Shown: in pieces, positions 418-59,430 of the stretch
Position numbering within the stretch: position 1 is the stretch's first letter
Layout of the letters: every line of letters begins with the position of its first letter
NCBI RefSeq assembly: GCF_905475395.1
Contig: NC_058337.1
Span: 105,394,368-105,458,367, forward strand
Direction of reading: 5' to 3'
DNA from: Chrysoperla carnea
Lineage: Eukaryota > Arthropoda > Insecta > Neuroptera > Chrysopidae
DNA length: 64,000 nt
Notes under the pieces: model-generated
What the model was told of the DNA's origin: nothing
Seen by the model: the letters and a program-made list of their open reading frames with translations, nothing else
Database searches by the model: none
Made by a program: the position numbers and the translations under genes

Positions 418-3238
418 ATGTCTCATCAAACAGGCATTAAAGGTTTATTAATTTATTTTTTAAATACATTTATTTACAATATAATTCTAATAATAGGGTT
501 AATTTTTCAGCAAACGATTCGTTAAAGAAGTTTTTTGGAAAGTGCCGTGAAGGAAAAATACGTGTTTTTAAAATATCAATAGAAAATGGTAATTAAGAAT
601 AAAATGATGAATTTTTTTCATTAAATTTTTTTAACTATTGTTATACTTTTAGAGGAATTGACATTGTCGGCATACAAGGATGTCAAAAGTACGTGGGAGA
701 AAGATTATGATAAGAAAATTAAACCATTGGTTGAAGAAAATAAGCCATGTTATATATTTTACAGGTATGTGTGTTAAATCTTTCTTTATTGAAAAATAAT
801 TTTTCCTTAGTTTACGATAAGAAAATTAAATTAAAAGAATTTTTCCTTGTAACATAAAATGACAAATAAATTGTTCTGGAAAAACAAATTAACTGATAGA
901 TAATTTTCGAAAAAACTCATTACGCTCCGTTTTTATATTTACATTGTATGTCAAATTTCACAAATATATCGAGAATAATTGTCAAAATTAATAAAAACTG
1001 TTAATGATTCGGGAGGTGTACGAGAAAAATCTGTAGGGACACTTTAATATCGATCAATTTGCCATTTCGTCTTAAGTTTCAATCTAGTATTTCTGATCAG
1101 GAGGAGATATAATCGTTCAAATTTAAAATACGTTTTAGACAGATTTTATAATCTCTCTTGAAATATTTTTGCCCGTGTCTCCTGGACTATAACTATTAAT
1201 TCTACATCGAAAAACTTTTAAAAACTCTTCTACTCAAAACCATTGTCTTTTATGTGCTGTCGTCATAAGATCCCCTATAAACATTTAAAAGGCCCGTTCT
1301 CATTATACTTTAATTATAAAATTTGTAATTAGAGCACCATAAGAATACTAGTTCAGCCAGAGTAGTAGATTTCTGCAACCTCTTACGTTTTATTTATTGA
1401 ATTAAAACGTAAATATTTTTGTTATTATTGTAGATTAGATACAAAAAATGCTTCTGGATACGAATGGCTATTAATTAGTTGGATACCGGATACAGCGACA
1501 GTCCGCGAAAAAATGTTATACGCATCCACAAAAGCAACATTAAAGCAAGAATTTGGTACTGGGTATATTAAGGAAGAAATTCATGGAACTACATTGGTAA
1601 ATTCAATTTTTAGGATTCCGTCATCAAACATGAAAAACAGAACCCTTCTTGAAGAGAGTTCTTTTACTTGAAACTTAACGAGGAGAATACATTTCTGTTT
1701 TAGGACGATGTTACATTAAGTGGATATCAACGTTACAAAACATCAGCCAAAGCACCGGCTCCATTAACTAGTCGTGAAGAAGAGTTACAAGAATTACGTA
1801 AATCTGAATTAAGTTCATGTACTGATTATAGTGTAGATAGTCGTCAACAAACCCTTGGCGGTGTTTCATTTCCAATGACTGAATCAGCAAAACAAGCAAT
1901 TTTAGATATGGCACGAGGATCTTATGACTATTTACAATTTCGCATCGGTAATTATATTTTTAGTAATACTAAACACTCTAACGAAGGTCACGGGAAAGGT
2001 GGGTGTGTGTTATATATCCTTTTCATGGTCCCCAGAACTCAGTTTGTGGATTTTTTGGTTCAAATGAGCTGAAATTCGGTGTGTAACTGGTTTCAGCAAT
2101 GGGGACAGGGTTTCTAGGGGAAAAGGAGAAAAAACGCTTTTTCGCGGTTTTATGAAATTAAAGTTGAGTACAATCTCCCTAAATTGAGCAAGAAGGTTAA
2201 AAATCCGCATGTAAATTAATTTAGTGCCTTAAATGAATTTGCATTAAATATTGCATTTTTGGGAAACACATGGGTAAAGGCATAAATCCCATTCAATAAA
2301 AAGCATTCTATAATAAGAAATATATGAATAAAGAGAGGGGTTATGACTTTAGGGGATTTTAATCTAAAATATAACTTTTTCTAGAAATCGAAGAAGAAAG
2401 AATAGATTTAGTTACAGCAAGTAATATTAGTTTAGAAAAGTTACCATCACAAATACCCGAAGATACTGCACGTTATCATTTATACAAATTTAAGCACACA
2501 CATGAAGGGGATTATTTGGAAAATATTGGTAAGATTTAAAAAAAAATCTGAATACTCTTAAATATTTTTTCATGTTCTTTCCATTTTATTTCAGTATTCA
2601 TATATTCCATGCCTGGTTACAATTGCTCGATAAAAGAACGCATGCTTTATTCGAGTTGTAAGGCGCCGTTTTTAGTTCAAATTGAAAATATGGGATTAGA
2701 AATCGAGAAAAAGGTTTGTATTAATTAATTTTTTTTTTTTTATTCTAATTTGCTGTCTGATCCAGAATGTCGAAGGCAAATATCAAATGGATTTTTAAAT
2801 TTAAATTACAGTTATTCGAATATTCTATCCTCTCGATTGGGTGTAGTGAGCTTTAATTTGTGGAAATTTATTTTAATATAGTTAGGTGTTGAAGTAGTAT
2901 ATTACAAGCCGAGAGAGACAAACATGAAATCTGAGACATTATTTACTTGCTCCCCTAGTGTATATCAGATAGTGAAGAAATGGAAGTTACAGTTTAGATC
3001 TAGAAAGATAAAGATTGTTGGTTCGATCCCCACCAAGATCTTAATAATGTTATAAATTTTTTTAAATTAATTTTTAATCATAACATTTTAGTTAGAAATT
3101 GAATCCGGCTCTGAGTTAACTGAAGATTATTTGCAAGATGAAATACATCCAAAGAAAAATTTACATAGACCAAAATTTGCAAAACCAAAAGGACCACCAA
3201 ATCGAGGTGCCAAACGATTAACTAAAACGACAAATTAA
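418..3238 (+). CDS. twf: Twinfilin, 8 exons, complete
   Basis: Exons by splice signals and phase: 418-442, 511-588, 653-764, 1434-1596, 1704-1947, 2385-2528, 2595-2713, 3092-3238; total 1032 bp, 343 aa, the usual length for insect twinfilin. The start gives MSHQTGI, the conserved family N-terminus. Two ADF-homology domains lie at about residues 4-140 and 175-312, joined by a linker (exon 5, [14 protein letters not shown]). The basic tail [16 protein letters not shown] onward is the conserved capping-protein and phosphoinositide-binding segment. Known family role: binds ADP-actin monomers, caps or depolymerises barbed ends and regulates capping protein in the cortical cytoskeleton. Every exon joins in phase, so the gene looks intact. 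Intron 3 (765-1433) is the longest. Intron 5 (1948-2384) holds a piece of an interspersed repeat. Identity is secure; the terminal exon borders are inferred by reading. Confidence 0.95.
1990..2110 (+). repeat. Interspersed repeat family E, copy in twinfilin intron 5
   Basis: Contains GTGTTATATATCCTTTTCATG and TTCAAATGAGCTGAAATTCGG. The same two blocks, same order, occur in reverse orientation at about 10970-11135 inside the AGXT2-like gene. An open frame of 65 codons that starts in twinfilin exon 5 and runs into this repeat is a frame extension, not a gene. Confidence 0.4.
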
Positions 3239-3253
3239 TCATAAAACCGAACA

Positions 3254-3259
3254 AATAAA
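3254..3259 (+). terminator. Candidate polyadenylation signal, twinfilin
   Basis: AATAAA 16 bp after the twinfilin stop; would give a very short 3' UTR. Another AATAAA lies near 4126, so the true site is open. Confidence 0.25.
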
Positions 3260-3399
3260 AACAAAACAAGACTTCGTCAATGATAATGATTAAAAATAAG
3301 ACTTAAATTATGATATATCATATATTTTTAAAACTGTTAAAACAGTTTACTATTTAGACATTTTTTTATCAATATAAGAGTAATATATAGAGTGTCCTT

Positions 3400-3440
3400 T
3401 TTTTAAAAAAAAAAAAAAAAAAACAAACAAACAAACAAAA
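3400..3440. repeat. Poly-A run followed by (CAAA)n
   Basis: About twenty A residues followed by three CAAA-type units, about 160 bp after the twinfilin stop. Could be a microsatellite or an old retro-insertion tail. Confidence 0.6.
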
Positions 3441-5297
3441 AGTATTTATGTAACAGCAGTAGATGCAATTATTTTAGCTGTAAATGAAAACTTGAAAAAA
3501 AAATGTCCACATTCTTAATTTTAGTTTATTACAAAAAATTAACAAAAATTTGTGCTGAATAATGGCCACAATGCGCCATATTGAAGTTTCCACGGCGTCA
3601 TTTATCTTATGCCAAACAATCACTTAGCATTTGATTATTTTTTGACTCTTTTTGAACTAAATTGAGCGTGATTTTTTCTAGACTAAAAAAAATTAAAAAT
3701 TTGTATTTGCTCATTCAAAAGTTCTAGAATTCAGACAGATCAAGTGGTGCAAAATGATTTTAACGATTTGAATCTTTTATTATTTCTTTCTAAGCGATAA
3801 TTATACGTATATTAAGTAAGAGTAGTTTTTTTTTCTGTTTAATTACAAGTGAAGAATATTTCCTGGGAAAAAGCAATTTGTTTTAGAAAACTTTTAAGAA
3901 TTTTTCAAGTATTATATTTTTTATTTGAGGAAGTATTCTATTTTTTATATGATGATGATTTTAATGAGCCAAATATGTCATCTATCCGAGCCATTCAATC
4001 TAGGAGCATGCAATATGGGATCAGGAATTCAGGAAGGTTCCTTATGACTTCTTAGTTTCAAAAAATAACGATCATATGCACGCAAGTTAATTCAAACGTT
4101 AAGCTCATTTTACGCCTACCGTATAGAATAAATAAGACACAGTATTCATTAATTTTAAATAAATATGCAGGCCCGAACTTAAAAATATTTAAGACCTGTA
4201 GAAAGTAGTGGGTCATAATTATATATCTTAGCTTAAAATATCTAAGTCATATTAAACCCTAGGGAAGAGCTCAACCGTTGATAAGAGATATTTATCAAAA
4301 CGAGCAATAGATGTTTCAAGCGTCTTTTATATTTGCCTGGATCTTGATCTGGGTCCATAAAAACAATATTTTATTCATGAAGACATTCTATATATAATAA
4401 TAAACATAATTTTTATGATACTGAAATTAATAGCTAAATAATGGTGCAATGTAAAATTTTAGCTAACATTTTTAAATACGTTTTTATATATATTTGTGTA
4501 CTTTTTTCACGTTTCTATTATTATTTAATGTTGATTTTATATGATTGGAGCCGTGGCGGGGAGGAGATAGTAGAATCAGACAATAAAAGCAGATAATGTG
4601 ATATATTAATTTATAATTGCATGACCAACGATCATAAGAAAAGAGTCTTTAATTTTTTTTAGTTTAAAATAAAAGATTCCTTATAGCTATGCAATTATAG
4701 AACAGCGATATTCTCGACTGAATGCCGATCTCTGTCATTTTGTCAGGTTTTATTATTTTTTAATAGTATTAAATCCGGGAAATTGATATTTAGAAATGTT
4801 AAGCTAAAATAATAAACGCATAATGCGCTGCTTTAAATTGCATTGTATTTGTTTTGTATAAATCGTGGGCCTAGCTTAGTATTAATAACTCAAATATATT
4901 TTTATACGTGCTGTGTTTATTATCAAAAAATATAAATTATAATAATTATGTTATTGGAAATTTAGATAATTAAATTGTGATCGTAGCTACATTCAGATTT
5001 ATTTAGTTCAAAAGCTGATTTTCGAATAGCCACTCTAAAATTTGTATAAATATTTTTCGACTTAATTAAAGTTATTATTTCTCTAGGCAGCAATTAAGAG
5101 GCCATAAAACTGCGTGATATTGCTACGTGATACACGTTTGGCTTGTTTCACAAATAATGTTGACGATTATGTACCAATGGTTTATGGATTCAGACATAAA
5201 ACAATACAGACTACAAGCTCATGTTGAAATTTTTCGGGTAAAATAATCCACAAGGAATCATGTAGAAAAAGATGTTCCTATATGTAAAATTAAGTTT

Positions 5298-5486
5298 AAG
5301 CACGATGGCGTTAGTTTCGCGTGGTACAAGTGAGTAAAGGTGAGAATATGAATGTCACAACTCTTGGTATCTCACCTCTGCACCATCAGCAACGACGTAC
5401 ATATTTGATGGTACAGGGGTGGAATATCAAGGGGTATGGCATTCATATTCTCACCTGTACGACGCACAACTGACGCCATGGTGCTT
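5298..5486. repeat. Imperfect hairpin repeat, about 190 bp (MITE-like)
   Basis: AAGCACGATGGCGTTAG on the left pairs with CTGACGCCATGGTGCTT on the right, and AGGTGAGAATATGAATG with CATTCATATTCTCACCT further in. The loop region has a second partial pairing (TGGTAC / GTACCA type blocks). No gene. Confidence 0.5.
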
Positions 5487-8400
5487 ATACTCTCATTTTG
5501 AATCATAACTTTAATTACATTATGCTATTTTACTCAACAATACCTTTACTTTATTTATATTAGTTAAATTTAATAGTGCCCATGTCTTCTTAAGTATCGG
5601 CTTTTGAAGGAAAGTATATTAGTTATTTGCGACTTAAAATTGTCAAAAGAATATCCTTTTAAACTATGGTCATTGAGTCACGAGATGTCTGTATAAAGCT
5701 CATTTCTTCCATAAAGAGATTTGATAAGAGTTACAGGGTTTGGTGATAGTCAAACATTTTTTAAGATTTTCTTGATAACAAGCACATTATAAGAATTATG
5801 CAATATAATATAAAAATTTTGCTATACATAAATTTTGTGTTGTCGCTCAAGATATTGGCTTGTTATTTTTAGCAATATGTTGCAGGTTAATCTTAAGGTT
5901 GCTTAGTAAAATACATAGCTTTAGATTGTAGCACCAAAGTGACTAAATAGAAAAAAGTTGGATCGATCAAACAGATTATGTTCAAAATTGTGCTACCAGC
6001 TTTTCGGCTAAAACAGCAACTAGCGAAGCAATGCAGAGAAACATTTTATTGCCTAGTTTTTTTTTTTGTGTTGCTTTGTTCAGTATTTTAGCAATGTTAT
6101 CAACTATTTAAACTTTGTAATCACTGAAAAATTAAATATGCATTGAGTAACCATTGAGTCTCTCCACAGGTCCCGTGAGTTATTACGAAGGTTAAATTTT
6201 AATCGTTATTTGAATTACGCCTTATATAAAAGGATGTGTATACCATAAAAATTATAAAAATCGCAAAAATTTGATTTTTTTGAATACCATATTTCGTTTA
6301 TTTCGTTTTCCTTAGTTCTTAAAAATAATTTTGAAAATTGGACAATTTTATTTTGCTATGCTATGAATTTTGCATGTTATATATTTTGTTCGACTTAACT
6401 AAATCACATTTTGGCGAGATTATCTGCACTAGTAAATTAATTCGAAAGTGTGTATTAAAATGAACGTGAAAATTTTAAATCTCGATGATGGAAAGCACCT
6501 TGTAATTAAAATACACACTAATTAAATTTTTTAAATCTAATTTTAAGTATAGTTTTGAATACTTGCCTGATATTTTGACGATTAAGTTTTTAATAAATAT
6601 AATCTGGTTTATTATTTTTTATAAAATAAATTATGCGTTTTGATTTTATTTAATCTAAAAATTTCGCTATTGTGCAATATAGAAAATTAATTTATCAGTT
6701 AAAGAAATGAGTACGTTTTCGAGTTCTGTAATCAGACAAGAAACTTCAATTAGGAAAATGTTTTAAACCATTTATGAAAACTCTTTCGGTGGATTCGAAT
6801 ATCGAATTCCATATTTATAGTTCAAAAATAAGAGATGATACTTACTTTTGGTAGATTTTTACTCTATTTTTAAATATCTATCTCACGATATTTGCGGAAA
6901 TCTATGTGCAGTTTTATTTATAAAGCGATTCTTCCTATTAGTACAAACAGGGATTGAAAATTTTTCTCTTCTCTCATCACAACGTCATCATCACAATCCT
7001 AAATTGAAAATCGAATATAAATTTGCCTATGCATTTTCTTCTCGGGTGCATATTTTATCAGGTATAAGCTACCTAACGCTTGTTAACGCCTTATAATTGT
7101 GATAAAAAATTTTTGCAATAATATTTTAGTCCTAAAAGTGAAGGAATATTTTGATTGAAGGATCAAGTAAATTCGAAAAATTCTTTGTGGTGAGATTGCT
7201 ACTATTTGAAACCGTCGAAAAAGTGTGGTACGATAATTTTTTATGAATCACTCTTCGAAAATGATAGTAAAAAAAGAAGAAAATGCGATCGCCATTTTTC
7301 TTTCAATAATCACGTAATTTGATTTATTATAGCTCACCATATTTGGAACAAATGGTTTGAAATTTTGTTTTACGAAATTACGAAATGAGTGTCTATTTTT
7401 GATTACAGAACTCTAAAAATGATCGACAATACTTTTAATTGTATACAAATTTGCCAATAATTATCTAAAAAGTATATTTAAATAATGTATTTTGATGTCT
7501 ATAACAAATGAACAAAGTATCTATTACCATCCGTTTACATTCTAGTATAACTAATATAAACAATTTCATCTTAATTTAAAAATTTTAGTTGTATTATAAT
7601 TTATTTTACAATAAACAAATTTCTAGCATTTTAATGTTTCAATTTTTATCTTTATTTACAAAATAAGTACGTTATTAAAATTGAGATGGTCAAAACATTC
7701 CCATCGTTAAAAATTCATTCCTAAACAGTTATCTTTAGTTCATTTTAACCTAAGCGTATCCTCCTTCGTGTTCCATACATGTAATAAACCTTTTTCATGA
7801 AAAACAGAAATGCTTTTAAATAATTTTTTATTAAAATATAGGTCGAGTAGAGCCTGTAACTCGAAAATTACGCATTTTTAACAATAAAAACGTTATGAAA
7901 AAAATTTTAAAAAAGTCACAATATTTGAAATAATTTCAAACGATTTTTTTTGGCTCCACCGCACACGTGATCTGTGATGTCAATCCGACAAGCAATGACA
8001 ATAAAACAGTGTTAAAGGTCCTATTAATATATCATTATTATCAAGTTTAAATGACGTCAAACCAACCCTCGTGTAACATCGTGATTTTCATTGTCTGTTT
8101 TCTCGGTTATATGACTTCAAAAAAATCGGGGAAAAAAATTAGCCCATTTATCAAGAAGACATTTACTTTCATTTAAAAAAAGTTCTTTTATAAAATTGTT
8201 TAAATTTTTTTTCGTAAACCTTATAATAAAAAAGTTATCCATTTGTAGCCAACTCAAGCCAAACTTAAGAAGAACTTGTATATAAATTGATTTGACACCA
8301 GTAATTTTAAATAGATAGTTAAATTAAGGTTGAAAAGGAGAGCTATTCAGGAAATTAACTCGAATATCTACAAAATAATTTTTTATTTTTATTTAAAACA

Positions 8401-9045
8401 ATAAAATATCTTATCAATATAATGTAAAATACATTTCCTTAAAAATCTTACAATTAAATTGTACAAAAAAAAAATTCATTATATACAAATTCTATGATAT
8501 CTTTATAAATTCCATAATTAATTAAAGTTTGCGTAATAAATAATAAATACAATAATTATGAATGGCTCTACCATTCATAACAATAATATACACTCTCTCA
8601 TTCATTTTTGAAATATTTGAAGCTATCGTTTTAAAACCATGATACAATGTACAATATTTAGTGTAGTTCGGTTGTTTTGTCAACTGTTTTGTCAACTAGG
8701 CAATTTGTATGACGTAAATGTAATAAAATGCTCTAAAAATATCGTAAAAGCGTCAAACACCAATTTTTTGTATAAACACAATCTGTGATAAATTTTTTTC
8801 ATGATGAAAACTTTTTTGAAGCTCAATCACACAATTTTTGTACAATTAACTTTATTGTGAATTTTTTCATAAGGTACTGTGTTAAAAATCACAAATTTAA
8901 AATGAAATATTTCAAAATTTTTACCTGCAAGAGGCTCCAAAACTGTGTTTATTGTGATCAAATGGCTTTGAACTATCATTTACCGCAAAAAAAGAACACT
9001 CACCGTTTTTGCTCAAACAGAACTACTTTAATTTATCTTATAGCT

Positions 9046-23668: not shown

Positions 23669-24125
23669 CTAGCTGTGTACTACTCGCTTCGCTGAGTAAC
23701 TTCAAATTTAAATACAAAGATTATTGTGTTATAACTTTCATATGTTATGTCGTCACTTATCCTCCGTTTGTTCACAATTTTATCGATTTTATTATTTTTT
23801 GGTGTGGAACCCTAATTTTTGGGCAAAAGCCCTAGCTGTACTGCCACACTTCGCTGTGGGACATTATGTTTGCATAGAAATAGATGAGAGGTTTCTGGTA
23901 AATTTTATGAAATTTGGTAAATCCCCGATAAAGAGTTCCGATAAGAGAAATTGTCAGATCAAACCACATTACACTGGGTTATTGAATCTTCACATTCTCG
24001 GATTTGGATTTTCAGAACTACGAGGATGTGTTCTTGAAAACCTTAAATTGGATCAAATTTTACCAAGCGGCATCGTTTTCGCGGAGTCCAAATTAGTCAA
24101 AAACCAAGTTTCTATCAAATTCTGA
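23669..24125 (-). mobile_element. TE remnant with Helitron/RTE-like terminus
   Basis: Read on the minus strand the remnant ends ACTCAGCGAAGCGAGT...CAGCTAG followed by T, like the 3' end of the intact Helitron (hairpin with GCGAAGC, then CAGCTAG/T). The upstream part holds another CCACACTTCGCTGTGGG hairpin. No matching 5' terminus is visible, so it is truncated or a different class. A 133-codon + strand frame at 23724-24125 crosses it but resembles nothing I know. Confidence 0.4.
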
Positions 24126-46103: not shown

Positions 46104-49100
46104 TCATTTACTATTTGCTTGTAGTGCTGAATTTATTTGTGCCCATAAATCTTTTTTACATGATTTTGATCTGAAACATTCAATTTTTACACTAAGTATG
46201 GATCAAGAATTTAATCAAGAGGGATTTTAAAACACTAAATTGTGGTACAATTTATTTCGTAAGACCGGACCTGACAATGGTTTGTTTTTGCAAATTTGAG
46301 TTTTAAATATTATAAAAGAAATTTCATTGTCCAGTTGGTCATTAGTAACAATTGTTTTTCTGTAAATTTGTTGCTGTTTAAGTGTTTGAAAAAAATACTC
46401 TGTATTTCAAAATCGTGACGGACTAAAATTTTGAAAAGGTTCCTGGTGTCTTTATTTTGAAAGAGAAGTCATTTATTTAATATAAGCAAATTGATTTCCT
46501 TTGGACAACAAAACGACAATGGATATTCAATTGTTTTTATGGCGAAAAATGTGTTTTATCACAGGCTTAAAATTAAATATACACCAATGATTGCCAGCAT
46601 ATTCTTGGTATATGCGCGTTGTTAAACCTACCCCGAATATTTATAATGAAAATAAACGATATATGCAACCCATCCGCCCGAAGTTAATATTCAATGGTAT
46701 TAATTTTGCGCCGATCAATAGGCCCAGACCTACAATCATTCTTCAACTTGTCGAACCAACATGACTACCTCACCAGTCTTAATGATATTACTTAATTTTT
46801 AATTTTATGTTTTAATTATATTTAAAACAAAAACAAAATTATATTGTAATTATTTTTAACAATATCCATTGCTTTATTTTATAGTTGAATAACAAGCATT
46901 CTTTGACCAAAATTGATTACAATAAAAGCAATATAAATTGTTATCAAAAATATACAGTTATTAAAGTGAAAACTTGAGACTGATACCGGAACATAAAGAA
47001 ATTATAGTATTTTATTGTAACTAAGTGTAAACCAACAATAAATAATTAATTAAATTAATTACAATACCTCTGAGCAAATTGTTTAAATTAAAAAATATAA
47101 AACACAACAAATTTAATAATGATTGAGAATACAATTGTAAAATTCAACGCGGTTAGAGAATTGACATGAGATCAATACCTACTTCAAGCGATTCACTTTA
47201 GGTATTTGATTGACTAATGAACATTATAAATTTATGAGTTACAATGAAATCTCTGGAACTGTTTCTTACATTGTGTTATCAATCTTATTTAAAGTCTTTG
47301 ATTTTTTATTAACTATCGTACTCCCGCGAAAATGGAGTTTCTAGTTTCAATTATGACAAAATTAATCAAATAAATAGAATAAGAGTCTGTAGGACTAAAA
47401 AGCCAGTAAATAGCTTTGTTACATATAAAATTCTAATTATTGTATAAACACTCTTGGTGCTAAAAGAAATAAATGGCCGAAATATTCAGCGAAATCTGTA
47501 AATCAGTTTTTATAAAAACACATGGTTAAAAAATTTATATTTTTGCGGATACAAAACGTAATTTGGTTAAACTTCAACTGGAAAATTAAGCACATCAGCC
47601 TAGACATAATAATTCCTATATACCTGCGTATCGATTGAAGCCATTCTTTAAATTGTGCACTTCCTTCAGGTGTCAGTTGGAATGCAGATCTTGCCGCACA
47701 CACAACATTCACAAAATCTTCATAATCATTGGATGTTAAGTGATATAATTTCTGGTGCATACATTGTATATACATTTGTTGACATTTTTGAACAAGTGGT
47801 GTTAAAGTTGTTCGTAAATGTTGCATCACTAATGTTGGATTATTTCGTCCAAGATATTGAGCTGCTTCAATTGCAACATCATGCAAAACAAATGGACTGG
47901 CAATTGAATTTACTGCACACACACATAATTGATGAAGGTAATGTGTGCCTGAAAATAAAAAAAATTAACCAAGAGTTAAATATTTATCAAGGTCGTATAT
48001 TTTAAAAGTCATACTTCGAGATCTTAAATCACTATATCGGAGAGTAAAAAAATAAATTCAAAGTAACGACTTTCTTTTTTCAAAACTTTATACAAATAAT
48101 TAAAAACAAACGTTTACTGTACCTAAATGTTTTGAAATACGTAGAAGCCATTTAACATCTTCACCGAGCGGCTGTTTGTCATATTTCGTTTGATGTCGAT
48201 CATCATAAAATCGTCGTGCAGCGGTTTCTAACGCTAACATTCCCACTCGATAAACAGCCAATAAATATCTCATTTGTGTCGGGCTAAAATGTTGTGGTTG
48301 TCTCGGCGGAGCGGGTTGAGCGGGTCTGGCTGATTGTACAGGCATTGGATACACAGATCGTACCATAGGTCCTTGATAAAATTGTGCTGCGCCCGGGGGT
48401 GCTGTGGCATAACCAACAGGTGGGGGTTGCGGTGCGGGCTGATTTGGTGGTGCACCATACGGTTGTTGATTCGTTGAATGTGGTGGGGGTGGATATTGGA
48501 ATTGTGATGGTGCTATTGCATACATTTGAACATGGGGCGGTGGAGGTAATTGTACTGTATGCGGATGAACAGGTGTACCGAACCCAACATGATGAGTATG
48601 ATGCGGATGAATTCCTTGTACAGTGAAACTGTATGGACCTACTGTATAAGGCATTGGGACATTGATTGGAGCAAGTGTAGTCGCCGGAGGGTGTTGATAT
48701 GGTGGAGGTGGGGCTGTTGTTACAACAACTGCGGAATTTGCGGCTAGAATTTGTGGACTTTGTGGTGGAATATTTGGTTGTATTTGTGGCATCATCTCCA
48801 TAGGAGGTGGTTGATTTGGCTGTTCCATAATTCCCATCATTGGGTTATTTGTATCCAATTGTAATGGATCATGAATCTCTTCATCGATAAGTAATTCTCC
48901 AGGCGGAGTGTGACTCTTATATAAATCATACCAATATCTCGCAACATTGAACAACACTTCTGGATTGATTCCTCCACCTTTTGCAGCGTTTTCAACGGTT
49001 AAGCAGGAATATTCTAACATAACATCACTCTGTTCTTTACACTGTAATATAGCACGATTAATTTCACCAGGATTCAATGCATGCGCATGTGGTAGGCATG

Positions 49101-52100
49101 ATAATGCTAAATCTGCTGCCGCGCGACTCATATTTGCATCGCATCCTCGGGAAGCTCGATCCGCAATACTAACAGCTTCTGGTGGTGTTAAATGTCCTTC
49201 CCAAGTGTCTATTAAGAACGATATCGCTGGTGCACCAATTTCCATTGCTTGCCCCGTAATCCATGATACATGAGACGAGTATGTTCGGCTTAACCAATTT
49301 GGACTGACACAGTTATGTAATCCTAATGCGTATAGTCCTAATTGAAAAGCACACATATGTAAGCCACGATGCGGTCCTAAATGGTTTTGACTTGTTGATG
49401 CCTGAGTAAATAACGATGTACTGCTGGTCCCACCAGCTTTGGTTAGCACGGTTTTTGCCAATTCAATCATAAAATGAGCACCGGCTTCTGATGGTTGATT
49501 TGGAATAGAGGGATACGCTCGTTTTCCTTTATATCTAGATTCTTTTGTACGTGATTGACCAGCTTGTAAAACGGGTGTTTGAGATGTTGATGGTAATGTG
49601 GGATTGCCAATTGATAATCCGGCCATATTTTGATCCAATTCTGCACTAGTTGAACTGTGTGGTCGACTTGGGAAACCAACTGAAACAAATAAAAATTATT
49701 ATAAACTTAATAAAAAAACAAAAATTGTGATGTACAAATTTATCTTTGATACATTTACTTACTTATAGGATCACATGGGGAAATTGGATCACAAGGTGGT
49801 TTAAATGATAACGCTGATGGCATAGGTTCACCTTCTCCACGTCGTCTTCCAATTAGCTGACTTCGAATAGGTGGATTATTCGAATAATATGAACTTAGCA
49901 ACGGACCTTTTATAAGTGTATGCACTTCACGGTCCAATAATTTTTCCATAATTTTCGCTATTTTACAAGGATCGTCTTTATAATGCACCAATAATGTTAC
50001 AGCCAATTCCCCTCGTTGTCTTCTTGTTCCCTCACATAACAATGGATGGTCAGCTTCGGAAACATTTGCTTTAAGTCCCAATGCAGCAACAGCAGCCTCA
50101 AAGCAGAGTGCTTCATCGGTAACGTAACGACCATTCGTATCAAATATTTTATTTCGAATATCACATTTAGTCGGTGTCATCAGTGAATCAAAAATAAAAC
50201 TAGCGAGCATAATTGGAAGCATAGCTTCCCCACGTGATTTGAGTGTACCATCACGTAATTGTTCGGCACGATTTCTAATTACTTTCAACTCTTCTGGGCC
50301 CAGATGTAATCGTTTCAATAACGTTACAATTTCCTGCTCTTGATTCGCCAATTTCACTTCTAACGGTTTTGTACTTGCTGGCGGCCGTGGCAATTCTAAT
50401 GCAAATATACCAACACGAAAAGCTAAATGTGAGTAATCAGCGTTTTCTGCTAGAACCGTGCAAATAAATGAACATTTACTTAGCGTAGCCGATGCTAAGC
50501 AGGTTAACTGATGTGACGCAGGATTCACTTGCTGCTTTTTCCCCTTTCGTTTCGGTAACGGAGGTATATCTATCATTAGATTTGGTGGATTTGCTAACAG
50601 TTCTTCAGCTAATCGAATACCTAACAAACATGCTTCTTTTCCATGACCGTGAGCATATAATCCTTCAGCTCGAGCAAACAATACATCCCAAGGATCATCC
50701 GTTCGTTTGATATTCGCAAATACGTCCGTTTTCTCAGGTGATTCTTCAACTAATTTATTTTCTTTACCTTCTTTATCATTTTCATCGTTAACTGATGCTT
50801 TTGGATCGTAATAATAAACATTGTACTCATCGCCTGATTGTGGTGATTCTGAGTTCGATGAAGATAACGATTCATCCTTGGAAGGCCGTCGAGAACATTC
50901 TTTAACATCTTCTGAGGGCGAAGCGTCTGATTCAGTTTCCGGTGATTTTTTACTACTTCCCAGGGTTGCTTTAACTGTAGATTTTTGCTTTGCTTCAGGA
51001 TTTCGTTGTGTTGATTGAGCTGCACTACTAGCTCCACTACTACTCGCCGCGTCGCTTCCACCACCTTCTTGGGAATCTGAATCAGCAGATCGAGCACTTT
51101 GTCCAACCAATATGTTAGCTTCATCTTCGTTTTCACAAAAGCCTTCACTACTGACACTCGATCTTGTACCATTTGGCATATTATATCGCATAAAATCGAC
51201 TAAACCAAGACGTGCTGCATGTGGATGTCCGGGCAATAACGGATGAAATTGATGATGATGATGGTGATGATGTGTGTGGTGATTTAAAACGGCCTGACTC
51301 GAATTCACTTGGGTCACTGTATCGGATTTAGCGTCACCCGTATGACGGAAACATGTAAACGGACAATGATACATTGGATTATTATCCTGAGTGTATGTAA
51401 TTCCAGGCATTGGATAATCATCCCAATCTAAGTAGCATGCTTCAATTGCTGGCTTAAAACCTAAAAATACTTCAATATCTGCACGCAGTACACTGGATTT
51501 ATTTGAATGATTATTTGTTGTGGCCGCTGCTTTACTCTTTGTTACTTTTTCGATGATTTTTAAATGCCAATTCGTGAATTGATTATGAAAGAGATCACGC
51601 TCGTTGGGTGCTAATCCTGGGTTTAAGGCTGCTAAACGCCATAGCACAACAATTTCATCACATAATGACGAACATGCATGCTGTGATGCATGACTGTTGC
51701 TGTTGACGTTACTATGTTTACCCCCACCACCTGAACCGTGGCCAGAACTGCCATTTACTAATGCTACTTTTGTATTAAACCACCATACCAAAATCTGCAA
51801 TTCATAAGTTTCACTCTCATATATTTTATATAAACTAGAGTTGCTATTTAAGATATTTGATAATTCGGTACAATTATTTACAATTTATATTTCGGACGAG
51901 CTTTTAACTTGTCGCCGAATTCAAAGCAATTAAAACTAGCATACTTCTAAATAATATTTTGGGAAATGAAACGTAGAAAATAACTTACTTGTTCACAAGC
52001 CATACATTCTTCAGTAACGATTTCCAACAACGGAACTGCATTTCTATCGTTTCGTTTAAACATTTCTCGAACTATACTTAACAAATTCCACATGCCTTCT

Positions 52101-55100
52101 GGTTCTCGTCCACGCAACGGTCTTAATAATGAAGACCATTCCGCGGCAGCTGGAGGTGCAGATGTGCTTAAATAATTTACATCACTGTAAACAGAAATAA
52201 CAAACATAAAGTTACATAAGCGTTCTTTCGAAAAGTCCACCATTATAAATTTGATATGTCTTACCTAAAAACAATTGGAGCTGGTACACAAAATTTGATT
52301 AAGATTTTCTTAATATTATCATGTAACGCCCTCTCATCCAGATACCAAGACGTTTGATCATTTACTGAAGCACCAGCGGTTGGATCTGGTGCTCCACATA
52401 CAGAGTTGATAGCTGATGGTTGCGAACTAAGTAATTCGTCTAATAATCTTTGGGCTGTTGGTAATATTTGTTGTGGAAGTTCACTGATTAAATACTGAGC
52501 AAACTTTTGTAATTGATCTCGATGTAAACGTGATAGTGATTCAGATACGGGTGCACGTAATGTTACATAATTCGGCTGAAACCAGAAAGAGAATTATCTT
52601 TATTTTGTGATACAAACCAAACAAAAGCCTCAATCTTAAGCCTAATCCAGACAGAGACGGACATCTTCATCTCTACCTGGATTAAATTAACAGTATTTTA
52701 TAATTTGCAGAAACAAAATATATTATTAGACAAGGATTTCGTATAATTCGTTGTTTAAAATATTTTTCTCTGGCAGTTTGCGCCAGAGGTCAAAACTTAT
52801 GCTTAAAAAAGAATGTAGTAGGACCAAGCAACGATTGAATCAAATGAAGATCCTAATTTGCAAATAAATATTCATTTTCAAAAGCAATTGTCTAAATTTG
52901 CCGGGAAGCGGCGGCGAAAATACTTTTCCAAAAAACTGGAATTTTTAAGGGAACTTTCAAGAGTGGATGTTGAGTTTTTATATACAAGGTGGACCATTTT
53001 AATATGTAATGGCTAATAACTTTTTTTGTAGTTAACCAACCAAATAATAGCTTTAACAAAAGTTGCAGAAAGTTGATCCTCATAAAAAACTAACATTTCT
53101 CATCTAAACCTCTTTTTCAAAAATTTCAGCTTTTGGAGGAAATGCAACCTAAAAATATGCCATTATTGCATTTAATCGAAAGAAAGCACGGAAACTACGG
53201 AAAAATAATTTAGCCAAAAGTTGTCAAGGGCAACAGAGTACATTCACATATGTGCGTAACTTTGACCTAAAATTATCGATAAACTTTCTTTTTTTTCCGA
53301 TTAAATGCAAAATTGACATATTTTTAAGTCGCATTTCCTCCGAAAGCTATTATAGATTAGAGCTATAAGCTATTATAGATTAAAATGTCCCACGCTGTAT
53401 ATAAGGTGGTGTAAAGGGTTCCCGATCTCTAAGAGAGGATCGGCATTAGTGGCGAACCTTTTAACTTAAATTAATCCACTCTTAATTCTTATCTAACCTA
53501 AAAAGAGTTTAATTTACTCATAACTGTGTTTGTTTATAAGTTGTTACATCGGCATTTGGAGCACTTTTATTTCTCTTCAAGTATTTTCTTCACACTTACC
53601 ATATGTATACGATATAAGCACACTGCAACCACATGTGAGCACCAATACGCTGGTGATGTACATGTACAATTACATGATGAAATTTTTCTACGATCAAATG
53701 TCACCGCTACATTATGAGTTGTTCGTACTTGTAGTGTGGTACTTGGTTGGCAAACACTTGCAGACAAATGAAAACCTAAGACAAAACAACAATGTAATTA
53801 AATTAATAGTCTGAGAAGCAGTAATGAATTTCGACATTGGATATAATACTGAGTCACCATTTACATTCTAAGACTATTGACAGTTGAAGACATGGAAATT
53901 TTGGAACTTTTATCTCAGTCAGATAATTTTGAGTTGACAGTAGACTTTGATAGTCGCAATTGAGTTGTTGAACAAAATTGTTTTTTGACAAAAATGGAAA
54001 TCGCATCGTTCAATATTATTCATGATAAATATTAGACACAAAATGAAAAATATTTAATGATTATTTTCAACAACTCAATTCTAATGCACAATTATGCATA
54101 CGCTAGCTGTTAGTAATTTTGGGTACAGTCTGCGTTTTATACCAGTCTTCAAAAGAATTGAAAGTAGAATATTACATATCTAGGTCTATCTATCTAAGAC
54201 ATTCTTTACTTGCTCCCGTGGTGTGTATACTATTGTTCTACTCGGCGGAGGCGGAAAGCGGCAACTTTGTTTAGCATATGCGGAACGAAAGTTGACACTC
54301 TCCACCCGGAGGAAAGAAAAATGAGACCTGATAGTCTAAGATCCCAATTAGGATCGACCTTCACCCATCTGTTTACCGAATGAAAGTTATTTTTTATGAA
54401 ATATAAAAGCTTAACAAATATCCCTGCAATGGGTTGCCTAAAAAAATGTGGTCAAGACTACTTTTAGTGAAAATATCAAGAGTAAAATTTTTGAAATTTT
54501 TCAGACTTGCATATCTAACGAATATTGATCTACTTGAAAGTAAAAGCAAAAAGGAATATGCAGCAGCTATGCTGTCTGCCTCTTTTCGTTCACTATTTTC
54601 GCATTTATACAAGTTGTGAATAGTAATTACGTTCATCTGCTAATTCATTGCCTCACATATATAAATAAAGATAATTTTATTGCAAATACGATGCTATATG
54701 ATTGTCCACAAAATATCAGTCAAAAAATAAAATTTACAAGCTTTCCGAGTTTTGATATTTTTATTAAAAGTTGTCTGGACCATATTTTTTAGGGCAACCC
54801 ACAACAGGGATATTTGTAAATATTTTACATTTCATAAAAAATAACTTTCATTCGGTAAACAGATGGGTGAAGGTCGACCTTATTTCGGATCTTGTACTAT
54901 GAGACATTCTTTACTTTTGCGCCTTAGATGTGTAATATACTATTAATTTCACCTGTGTCAATATTTCTTGTAAACAATGGCATTGGTAGAGGTAAAATGT
55001 TTAAGCAAATGTTAAATCGAAATTGTTTATATCCTTTGCTAAATTATTTGAAAATGGTGCATTAATATTACATCGATAAAAATTTTCACTTGCTTCTGGA

Positions 55101-55390
55101 GTATAAAAACCTAAAATGTCGAAACAATGACAACTTACCTATCTGCAAGGCATCTTTAACACTTCGCGTACGAAATAAGTGTTCACCACGTTGAAATTCA
55201 TCAGCTGAGCCATTTGCTAAACATGAATATAATCTAATATCTTCTTCATTATCTGGGAAACTCCAAAATGCAATACGTAATTGTAATTGTTCGGGGACTG
55301 GTGGATATATATGTTCCACTAATTCGAATGGTATGTGAGATGCTACACATCTTGCAGTTAATTCAGTTAATGAAGCTACGCCACTCGTTT
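46104..55390 (-). CDS. ZSWIM8: Zinc finger SWIM domain protein 8 (dorado/EBAX-1 type E3 receptor), 5'-partial
   Basis: Exons in view (minus): 55390-55139, 53775-53600, 52575-52265, 52184-51989, 51794-49763, 49679-48123, 47948-47624, 46170-46104; about 1637 residues, all phases consistent. The first exon in view opens with two bases of a split codon and holds the BC-box/cullin-box region (SLTELTARCVA, then HIPFELVEHIYPPVPEQ), so the acidic N-terminal exon is missing. Exon 53775-53600 carries the SWIM zinc ligands CNCTC...WCSH. Later exons have family blocks WSSLLRPLRGREPEGMWNLL, LAFRVGIFALELPRPPAS, WLSRTYSSHVSWITGQAMEIG and KCQQMYIQCMHQKLYHLT. A His run (HHTHHHHHHH), a Ser-rich acidic linker and a Pro/Gln-rich stretch look disordered. 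Family role: substrate receptor of a Cullin-3 RING ligase driving target-directed microRNA degradation through Argonaute ubiquitination. The reading ends SALQANSK with TGA at 46106-46104, aligning with the vertebrate C-terminus. Confidence 0.95.
46171..47623. other. Last ZSWIM8 intron
   Basis: 1453 bp, AT-rich, between exon ends AG|GTATAT (47624) and TTTCAG|A (46170). I see no further exon or repeat in it. Confidence 0.7.
52981..53402. mobile_element. Inverted-repeat element in a ZSWIM8 intron (family B)
   Basis: The left end TATACAAGGTGGACCATTTT matches the reverse complement of the right end (TATACAGCGTGGGACATTTT). An inner pair, around 53130-53192 and 53300-53352, shares GGAGGAAATGC and GCATTTAATCG. 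The element sits between ZSWIM8 exons 53600 and 52575. A related end occurs at the start of the window. Confidence 0.55.
54351..54879. mobile_element. MITE with about 125-bp terminal inverted repeats, PIF/Harbinger-like, in a ZSWIM8 intron
   Basis: Left end GGATCGACCTTCACCCATC and the reverse complement of the right end (GGTCGACCTTCACCCATC) match, and similarity continues inward for roughly 125 bp (to about 54478 and from about 54752). Both sides are flanked by TTA (54348-54350, 54880-54882), the 3-bp target used by PIF/Harbinger elements, whose termini also start with GG. It is 529 bp long and has no transposase frame. It lies between ZSWIM8 exons 55139 and 53775. Confidence 0.7.
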
Positions 55391-55937
55391 CTGAAAATGG
55401 ATAAAGAAAATCATATTAGTATGTTTGTTGAATAAAATTAATTAAAACTATTAAAAATCTATTTAATAATATCAGAGGAAATACAACTAAATTCGATTGT
55501 ATATCTTTTGGCAATAATTTCTAAAACTTACTTTATTATTTACGGGATAAATCCCATATAATAAAAAAATACACATCTTTAAAAATGCAAATGCATTCAG
55601 TAATAACAGAAAATCAATATATTTTTTTCGAGTGTTTGAGATGCGGAAAGTGACCTTTATCAACCCACCTATTATTAAATAATATTTGTTCAAAAAATTC
55701 ATTAACTTAGATAATTAGGTGTAGCTTTAGTTCAACAAGTATGTAATACAAGTTGTCTAATATGTGCTCTTGAAATGATGTGAAAACATTTGATTTTATA
55801 ACCAACTATAGTACAGAACATTATATTTTAGTTATTTTACCGAGGTCAACTTTTTGAACTTTAAAGTGTGTTTTCGAACCTAATAATACAATTTAATTGA
55901 TTCGAATTCATATTTTTGCTAAGTGTAAATAAAATTA

Positions 55938-57829: not shown

Positions 57830-58740
57830 TATAAAGTTAGGTAGAAATGAAGTACGCCTGACGCTTAAGGTCGGTTGGGTTCACTATACCTGAAAAAAGT
57901 TGCTGATATAGCAATATAATTATACTTGCCAGACAGTTTTCCGTTGCTACATTAACAAACTTTTGGAGAGGAACGGGAATTTCTTATAAACTGTACGGAT
58001 AAAAAAAGAAGCGAAAGTGAAATGCTAAAGGAAGTGTTTTTTTGTTTCCTTTGATGAGAATCTGATTGTAATTAGACATACTTTTTTGTTACATTTTGTA
58101 TGTGGGGGAGGACAAGGGTAAGTAGGTTGTTTATTGTTGTTTGAAATCATATTTTTGATTTAGAATAGTGTTGAATAAAGAGGGCAGGTATGTGTTATTA
58201 AACATCTGTTCTTAATTACAAATTCATTTATCATAATGTCAGCTAGTATACATTAATTAAAAACAATATTTTTCCAACGTTTTTAGGGTTCCGTAATTAA
58301 TCAGGAAAGTCTTCCCATACATTAAACTACTTGCGGACTTCCATCGTATTAGAAAATATACCCCCCTCACGATGTCGTTTTTATTATCCGAAGTCTTATT
58401 CTGTAGGCTCACTTTAATTTTTTGAATAACAAATAAAATTAATAGATCAGAATAAAATATATCAAAGTTTATAATATGAAAATATCCAAATATTTTGAGG
58501 TTAACTGCTAATTACAATAAATATTTTCCCAAAAATAATTATAAAATATGTGTATCATCTATATATATAAAAAGAGAGTGTTTGTTTGTATGTCCCCGAT
58601 TTTCCCTAAAACTAACCATTGACCTTCGGTAGGGGATTATGTCATTGGGTAGCCCTTAGGCTCCCATTGTGAATAAGGGAGTTTGGTGGGGGTGGAATTA
58701 AAAATGATCTAGGAATTTATAGAAAATAGATTAAAAAATA

Positions 58741-58901
58741 GTTCTAATAATTTTCAATAGATGGCGGCACTGTCAATAGTACAATTTTCACTAGATGGCG
58801 CTACTGTCTTCCGATTTTTTAGTTCTAATAATTTTCAATAGATGGCGCCACTGTCAATAGTACAATTTTCACTAGATGGCGCTACTGGCGCAAATGTCTT
58901 T
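58741..58901 (+). repeat. Two tandem 81-bp units with four AGATGGCGS motifs (CTCF-core-like), inside the Helitron
   Basis: The block starting GTTCTAATAATTTTCAATAG at 58741 repeats at 58822. Each unit holds two AGATGGCG motifs: 58759 and 58793 in the first, 58840 and 58874 in the second. Three read AGATGGCGC and one AGATGGCGG; two sit in CACTAGATGGCGCTACTG, close to the insect CTCF core. Motif resemblance only. Confidence 0.7.
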
Positions 58902-58907
58902 CGATTT

Positions 58908-59242
58908 TTCTCGAAAATTCTGGAATGTTCCATGGATTTCTATCGAATTTTCTAGAACTTTCTCGAATATTCTCGAATGTTGTATGGATTTTTATTGAAT
59001 TTTATCAAACTTTCTCGAACAATCTGGAATGTTCCATGGATTTCTGTCGAATTTTCTAGAATTTTCTCGAACATTCTGGAATGTTCTATGGATTTCTATC
59101 GAATTTTCTAGAATTTTCTCGAACATTCTGGAATGTTCTATGGATTTCTATCGAATTTTCTAGAATTTTCTCGAACATTCTGGAATGTTCTATGGATTTC
59201 TATCGAATTTTCTAGAACTTTCTCGAATATTCTGGAATGTTC
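58908..59242 (+). repeat. 52-bp minisatellite built of phased GAA/TTC modules (heat-shock-element-like array) inside the Helitron
   Basis: Units begin at 58945, 58997, 59049, 59101, 59153 and 59205, exactly 52 bp apart, with a partial unit before (58908-58930). In the last four units 38 bp consist of GAA and TTC alternating eight times, each pair separated by two bases: the inverted nGAAn pentamer pattern bound by trimeric heat-shock factor. The unit at 58945 has seven of eight modules; that at 58997 is degenerate (five); the partial one has five. The remaining 14 bp of each unit (TATGGATTTCTATC-like) are spacer. Binding is inferred from the motif, not shown. Confidence 0.9.
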
Positions 59243-59430
59243 CATGGGTTTCTATCGATCTTTCCCTTACTTTTCCGTACACACAGAGAGTGTAGACATA
59301 ATATTGGGATCGGCCAAAAAAATCTTACTGTTCCGTACACACAGAGAGAATTTAAAAAAAAGTCTTTCATTTAACAATTTTGATATTTAAATGTGCAAAA
59401 ACAACCCAGCGAAGCGGGTTTAACAGCTAG

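Follow-up and report, generated by a model that had tools for sequence, protein, structure and literature searches.

A tandem array of phased GAA/TTC modules resembling heat shock elements on a dispersed non-autonomous Helitron of Chrysoperla carnea

The Helitron and its surroundings

The window, meaning the whole stretch of 64,000 nucleotides of Chrysoperla carnea DNA that was analysed, holds a non-autonomous Helitron of 873 bp on the plus strand (58558..59430), placed between A and T and delimited through its termini, its copies elsewhere and their flanks. The nearest gene found is represented by ZSWIM8-like exons on the minus strand (47503..55415), the most 5' of these being separated from the Helitron by 3.1 kb, which places the element upstream of the gene or, if a further 5' exon exists, within an intron; a short motif search for such an exon found none. 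The G+C content is 30%. Beginning with the 5' TC of Helitrons, the element reads TCTATATA from 58558 directly after the flanking A, and its 5' terminus (58558..58570, plus strand), TCTATATATATAA, is common to the autonomous group described below. At the other end it closes with CTAG at 59427-59430, followed by T, in agreement with the 3' CTRR of Helitrons, and 10 bp upstream of CTAG stands the hairpin AACCC-A-GC GAA GC-GGGTT (59403..59420, plus strand). The folding energy of this hairpin is not better than that of shuffled sequences, 33 of 200 shuffles folding equally well, and a second hairpin figure from the same comparison is 58 of 200. The intact Helitron termini read earlier from the sequence alone are borne out by these ends, and the Helitron anatomy of the element can be regarded as virtually certain, judging by its sequence features.

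A second Helitron 3' end is found in the window on the minus strand (23669-23695), with the hairpin TACTC-A-GC GAA GC-GAGTA and CTAG before T. The stems of the two hairpins differ by paired, compensatory changes, and no phased runs of at least three modules occur within 8 kb of this second end.

The 873-bp element has no coding capacity, its longest open stretch being 92 codons; a coding reading of the array was rejected, since the period of 52 is not divisible by three and none of the frames is longer than this. Ahead of the array lies an 81-bp tandem duplication of 1.8 copies (58739..58887, plus strand) with four TAGATGGCG(C/G)(C/T)ACTG motifs at 58758, 58792, 58839 and 58873, and each of 30 copies of the element carries two to four occurrences of TAGATGGCG. 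These motifs resemble the core of the CTCF site, a likeness at the level of the motif.

The phased GAA/TTC array

The array occupies 58893..59256 on the plus strand and consists of seven units of 52 bp with 5, 7, 5, 8, 8, 8 and 8 intact phased modules, all in one register. The sequence-only reading had described four consecutive 52-bp units with eight alternating GAA/TTC modules each, separated by exact 2-bp gaps and covering 38 of 52 bp, and this was reproduced between 59049 and 59242, where units 4 to 7 carry plus-strand eight-module runs of 38 bp at 59049..59086, 59101..59138, 59153..59190 and 59205..59242. The three weaker units reported ahead of them are likewise present with 5, 7 and 5 intact modules, including exact phased runs of five (58908-58930) and seven (58945-58977), and the estimate of roughly fifty half-sites in 335 bp (58908..59242) agrees with a count of 25 GAA and 29 TTC. 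Tandem Repeats Finder (TRF) gives 6.8 copies of period 52 with 90% match, and the period, said to be close to five DNA turns, amounts by arithmetic to 4.95 turns at 10.5 bp per turn. If a heat shock element (HSE) is defined as at least three inverted nGAAn modules, contiguous and in 5-bp steps, the runs of 5, 7, 8, 8, 8 and 8 modules all qualify.

Chance is excluded as the source of this exact phasing. A six-module pattern matches at nine places in the window and is absent from all 100 shuffles, and random 52-bp units drawn under three composition models (3 x 2,000,000) include none with six modules and 24 with five. When 32 trinucleotide/complement pairs were scanned at nine gaps, only GAA/TTC with a gap of 2 exceeded two modules inside the array; outside it, the same scan of the window reached a maximum of five modules, from AAA/TTT and ATA/TAT.

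Within a full unit all 24 module letters are kept and the spacers vary, 7 of 18 spacer comparisons being identical. A test of this within-unit constraint against equal divergence gives P 3e-6 at the best divergence estimate and 0.011 at its lower bound, values that hinge on the divergence assumed. Between the units of the window copy the modules are not significantly better kept than the rest, with changes at 4/144 module positions and 13/168 others (p 0.078), or 4/24 and 9/28 when counted by column (p 0.34); this estimate of decay is too weak and was replaced by one from genomic copies.

Phased GAA/TTC runs are also found in prokaryotes, bacterial and archaeal loci (L016-L056) showing 7 to 20 modules, often as a single repeated decamer, examples being from Methanosarcina (L029, 20 modules) and Neolewinella (L022, 19). 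Among 41 prokaryotic loci with at least seven modules, an exact decamer is repeated in 19, and all spacers differ in two (L018, L034). A phage contig (L006, IMGVR 3300007770_000813) carries ten phased modules at 4004-4051 within a replication-initiation frame, and this run is 92.5% identical to a unit of the array over 40 bp, with closely similar spacers; there being no heat shock factor (HSF) there, phasing alone is no proof of HSF use. The scans of viral contigs, genome contigs, phages and plasmids returned no relatives of the element outside its own genome, their matches being prokaryotic or phage runs as judged by run structure (L001-L058). The loci L057, L058 and L106 were inspected and set aside.

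Copies through the genome

The genome searched has 559,487,470 bases in 337 contigs, and six contigs of 38.6-140 Mb account for 94% of it. In this genome the seven-module pattern occurs at 914 sites per strand and its reversed control at none, and GAANNTTCNNGAANNTTC occurs at 3657 sites, compared with 65 for the reversed pattern. Since a canonical copy yields about nine seven-module matches counting both strands, an estimated 200 or so copy-equivalents are present. A DNA search with the element gave 322 first-look candidates, of which the best 40 were scored. Copies elsewhere align over 1-872 of the 872 query bases, the query being one base short of CTAG; all 30 fetched copies end in CTA followed by GT, and 24 of the 30 match the 5' end from query base 1. 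Both termini were recognised in 39 of 45 copies tested, each of the 39 being preceded by A and followed by T. This count compares occupied sites, and two pairs of copies within it have flanks in common and do not represent independent insertions. The proposal that the host Helitron can spread the array is upheld by these full-length copies with their Helitron ends and A/T flanks, together with the 914 seven-module sites set against none.

The sequence-only reading had called for a search for all copies and a count of modules in each. This was carried out on 54 copies (the 30 top full-element matches, the 10 that followed them in that search and, from contig C1, 14 places with arrays, leaving out isolated four- and five-module sites at L218 and L219), which hold 1 to 9 units, with seven units in 37 of them, and 8 to 61 intact modules, with a median of 48. 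The usual order of intact modules across copies is 5, 8, 7, 5, 8, 8, 8, from which the window copy is off by one unit. The array family looks clustered on the first 9.66 Mb of contig C1, 17 array copies lying at C1:0.9-9.66 Mb among the matches listed and some three to four being expected from the estimate of about 200 copies. On contig C6, a broken Helitron_like_N fragment (C6:4358977-4359210) ends 60 bp from an array copy (C6:4359271-4360152, L187).

Decay of the modules after insertion

The copies allow the fate of module letters after insertion to be followed. Private changes in 342 of the 345 units from the 54 copies amount to 65/7197 in modules and 68/9576 in the rest of the unit, the latter divided into 32/4788 in spacers and 36/4788 in the gap (p 0.18-0.19). 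Of 30 copies, 23 have seven regular units; here departures from the majority number 30/3381 for modules, 23/2254 for spacers and 17/2254 for the 14-bp gap, and the end regions of the element differ more (126/4122 and 186/3973, together 312/8095). Since change is just as infrequent in spacers and gap as in modules, the low rate belongs to the array as a whole, through homogenisation, or is an effect of alignment or subfamilies. Module letters are not spared after insertion, and their decay matches that of the rest of the unit, so that the sequence-only reading here met the very outcome it had named against itself, namely phasing that decays neutrally in the copies.

An autonomous group with a heat shock element in its leader

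The genome has 64 Helitron_like_N matches, and one of these loci, L255, is a complete Helitron that begins with TCTATATATATAA after an A at 1220 and ends with CTAG before T at 6536. Its open frame (2025-6410) encodes a protein with Helitron_like_N and PIF1 helicase domains, and its 3' hairpin is CCCGG-GCGAAG-CCGGG. The leader of L255 contains, at 334 bp from the 5' end, an HSE of five modules, four of them exact, GAAATTTCTCGAATATTCTAGAG. A TATA box, TATATAAG, follows 14 bp downstream of the HSE, and on the upstream side, at 59 and 131 bp, stands GGCGCCATCT, the complement of AGATGGCGCC. All five leaders read, which share descent, have this arrangement. Four exact modules arise by chance anywhere in the 8.8 kb of L255 in 1 of 100 resamples; such a run should be rarer still within the leader alone, just upstream of a TATA box.

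The 23-mer GAAATTTCTCGAATATTCTAGAG has 16 sites in the genome and its control none. Thirteen of these stand upstream of, and on one strand with, a Helitron_like_N match, at a distance of about 1.5-1.75 kb, and three are near no listed match. The matches so preceded include all 11 at 197.5 bits, whose open frames span 566 to 1528 aa, with 1462 aa in six cases, and 51 of the 64 matches are without such a site. Two of the four transposase loci for which 8.8 kb were read, L256 and L257, have no comparable HSE run. Another locus, L258, has decayed phased GAA/TTC arrays at 8432-8658 (C6:11863931-11864157), of 10, 18 and 13 modules when one mismatch per module is allowed and of 5, 6 and 7 exact modules; they lie about 2.75 kb upstream of a minus-strand Helitron_like_N match, and their best run is reached in 0 of 100 resamples.

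Similarity between the array element and the autonomous group is found at several places and is weak at each: 94% over the first 16 bases of the 5' end (E 0.38), 91% over 23 bp between array and promoter HSE (E 0.002), and 78% over 32 bp, in inverted orientation, in the region of AGATGGCG (E 0.005). In both, AGATGGCG motifs adjoin an HSE, inverted in the autonomous leader. As the 3' ends of the two differ, the autonomous group is a candidate partner of the array element.

Host heat-shock machinery

On the side of the host, one HSF DNA-binding-domain exon was detected in the genome at 42 bits, above the cut-off, and Hsp70 genes are present, three pairs of them divergent. In the three stretches between the divergent Hsp70 pairs, the longest run is of three exact modules, or of five at one mismatch per module. 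Capture of the autonomous leader from an hsp70 promoter was considered and dropped, as the leader matched none of these three stretches at E 1e-3.

What the array may be

The arrays are most likely HSF targets, as far as their sequence allows a function to be assigned. Descent of the array from functional HSEs is highly probable, and binding of HSF to it in vivo is likely too, if with a little more reserve. The fuller reading, in which a real HSF-type HSE array has been amplified and scattered by a non-autonomous Helitron, is bound by HSF and brings the element some heat-linked benefit, is the one towards which we lean. The anatomy and the copies support an intact-ended Helitron that has spread the array, in a genome with an HSF exon and Hsp70 genes, and the earlier reading gains strength from the autonomous group with its HSE ahead of a TATA box; the part of the earlier claim that gave way is the maintenance of the phasing, which decays neutrally. 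We take it that neutral decay counts against copy-by-copy selection only and leaves the HSF reading standing, because the copies are young and a selfish mechanism depends on the sites of its source copies and not on those of each insertion.

In such a mechanism, heat shock would lead HSF trimers to occupy the arrays cooperatively and, by analogy with Caenorhabditis, HSF would drive the transposase of the autonomous group through the leader HSE; occupied non-autonomous arrays could then open their chromatin while the transposase is being made, which would favour mobilisation. As a by-product, genes adjoining the copies could turn heat-responsive, and the array would be maintained by its effect on the element lineage, without selection on each inserted copy. 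A heat-coupled life cycle of this kind is a tentative proposal that falls just short of an even chance. More tentative again is a two-part heat-coupled system, in which an autonomous Rep/helicase element run from an HSE-TATA promoter is accompanied by a non-autonomous element with the same promoter parts expanded; its array of HSEs and insulator-like AGATGGCG motifs would recruit HSF and render the element accessible at the time when transposase is made.

HSF binding could also be passive, the array being a minisatellite that grew from a single HSE by tandem duplication and acts as a sink or bystander enhancer with no effect on transposition, which we consider unlikely, if a serious contender. 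The range of one to nine units across copies, the identical neighbouring units that bespeak recent duplication, the neutral decay of modules in the copies and the lack of coding capacity all fit such growth, which on the other hand leaves unexplained the first eight-module unit with its diverse spacers; the independent occurrence of an HSE-TATA arrangement in the autonomous group and the recurrent pairing of HSE with AGATGGCG moreover suggest a regulatory history. The phasing might instead be a structural or mutational accident, a self-complementary, A-tract-phased decamer or palindromic repeat whose HSE likeness is incidental and which may matter as DNA secondary structure in rolling-circle replication. 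Phased runs in prokaryotes and phages without HSF point that way, as do the failure of copies to spare their modules and the folding of the array single strand, which at -43.8 kcal/mol is far better than the shuffle mean of -25.9 kcal/mol (z -5.35). A slipped decamer would, however, give uniform spacers where those of the array vary; the G/C edges of the modules are always kept, neither folding nor A-tracts require exact 2-bp gaps at seven steps, and the HSE of the autonomous leader is positioned as in a heat-shock promoter, so that an accident of this sort appears improbable.

Use of the array by another factor is more improbable by far. Every full unit contains GGAATGT and TTCTATCGAA, which we take to be TEAD-type and STAT-type motifs respectively, the latter with a 4-bp spacer, and the element holds six GGAATGT and five TTCnnnnGAA; yet these motifs overlap the GAA/TTC modules and occur once per unit as any motif would in a 52-bp repeat, and neither predicts eight modules with 2-bp gaps.

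Significance and relation to known systems

Should the two-part system be real, it would represent a second origin of an alliance between HSF and Helitrons, outside Caenorhabditis, and several thousand HSE modules would have been placed near host genes. A second lineage with an HSE-led autonomous partner would reveal that the heat-shock response has been recruited by Helitrons repeatedly, and heat could control both the element and the genes adjoining its insertions. The natural copies with one to nine units would allow HSE dose to be compared with heat response, and the question of whether sites for a stress factor help the transposon itself or are a mere by-product becomes directly testable.

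Non-autonomous fly Helitrons, the DINE-1/Helitron elements of Drosophila, have internal minisatellites or tandem repeats, and we know of no HSE array in them. In Arabidopsis, ONSEN is reportedly a heat-activated LTR retrotransposon driven by heat shock factors through HSEs; it resembles the window family as a mobile element with HSEs and differs in being a plant LTR retrotransposon, without a tandem HSE array on a non-autonomous Helitron. Tandem repeats serve as HSF targets also in human satellite III and in further satellites bound by HSF1 (excerpts of PMC9032817). Satellite III is a pericentromeric satellite, whereas the array of the window belongs to a dispersed transposable element.

The closest parallel is in Caenorhabditis, where, in the excerpts of PMC6927752, HSE-bearing Helitrons include Helitron1_CE, Helitron2_CE, HelitronY1_CE, Y1A_CE and Y4_CE. 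According to the same excerpts, HSF-1 binds the Helitrons that are rich in HSEs, transposase RNA increases in an HSF-1-dependent manner and genes adjoining the copies join the heat response (PMC6927752); HSF-1 has also been placed on Helitrons upstream of fbxa-215 (excerpts of PMC12062965). Longer HSEs are bound cooperatively by HSF-1 DNA-binding domains, at most five per site, in nematode work (excerpts of PMC9148306). A survey of UCSC metazoan genomes found enrichment only in its three Caenorhabditis species, from which restriction to the genus was suggested (excerpts of PMC6927752). The string printed in the Results of that survey, NGAANNTCCNNGGAN, has no match in the window, and the string of its Methods, NGAANNTTCNNGAAN, matches 16 times per strand in the array; the idea that the survey was blind to the array through its search string was dropped, as the Methods print NGAANNTTCNNGAAN and NGAANNTCCNNGGAN is likely a misprint (excerpts of PMC6927752). 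The density that had been put forward as without equivalent in an insect has examples that are at least comparable in Caenorhabditis, where eight HelitronY4_CE copies carry more than 100 HSEs (excerpts of PMC6927752), and no report of an HSE-bearing Helitron in an insect was found in the open-access literature. The two cases are alike in having mostly non-autonomous Helitrons that supply clustered HSEs, here in high copy number, and also HSE-bearing autonomous copies, which in Caenorhabditis are heat-responsive (excerpts of PMC6927752). The window family is of the same kind as the Caenorhabditis case, and new in it are another genome, a different array, built of eight-module units in a 52-bp repeat and accompanied by AGATGGCG motifs, and a promoter-bearing autonomous group with its HSE-TATA leader.
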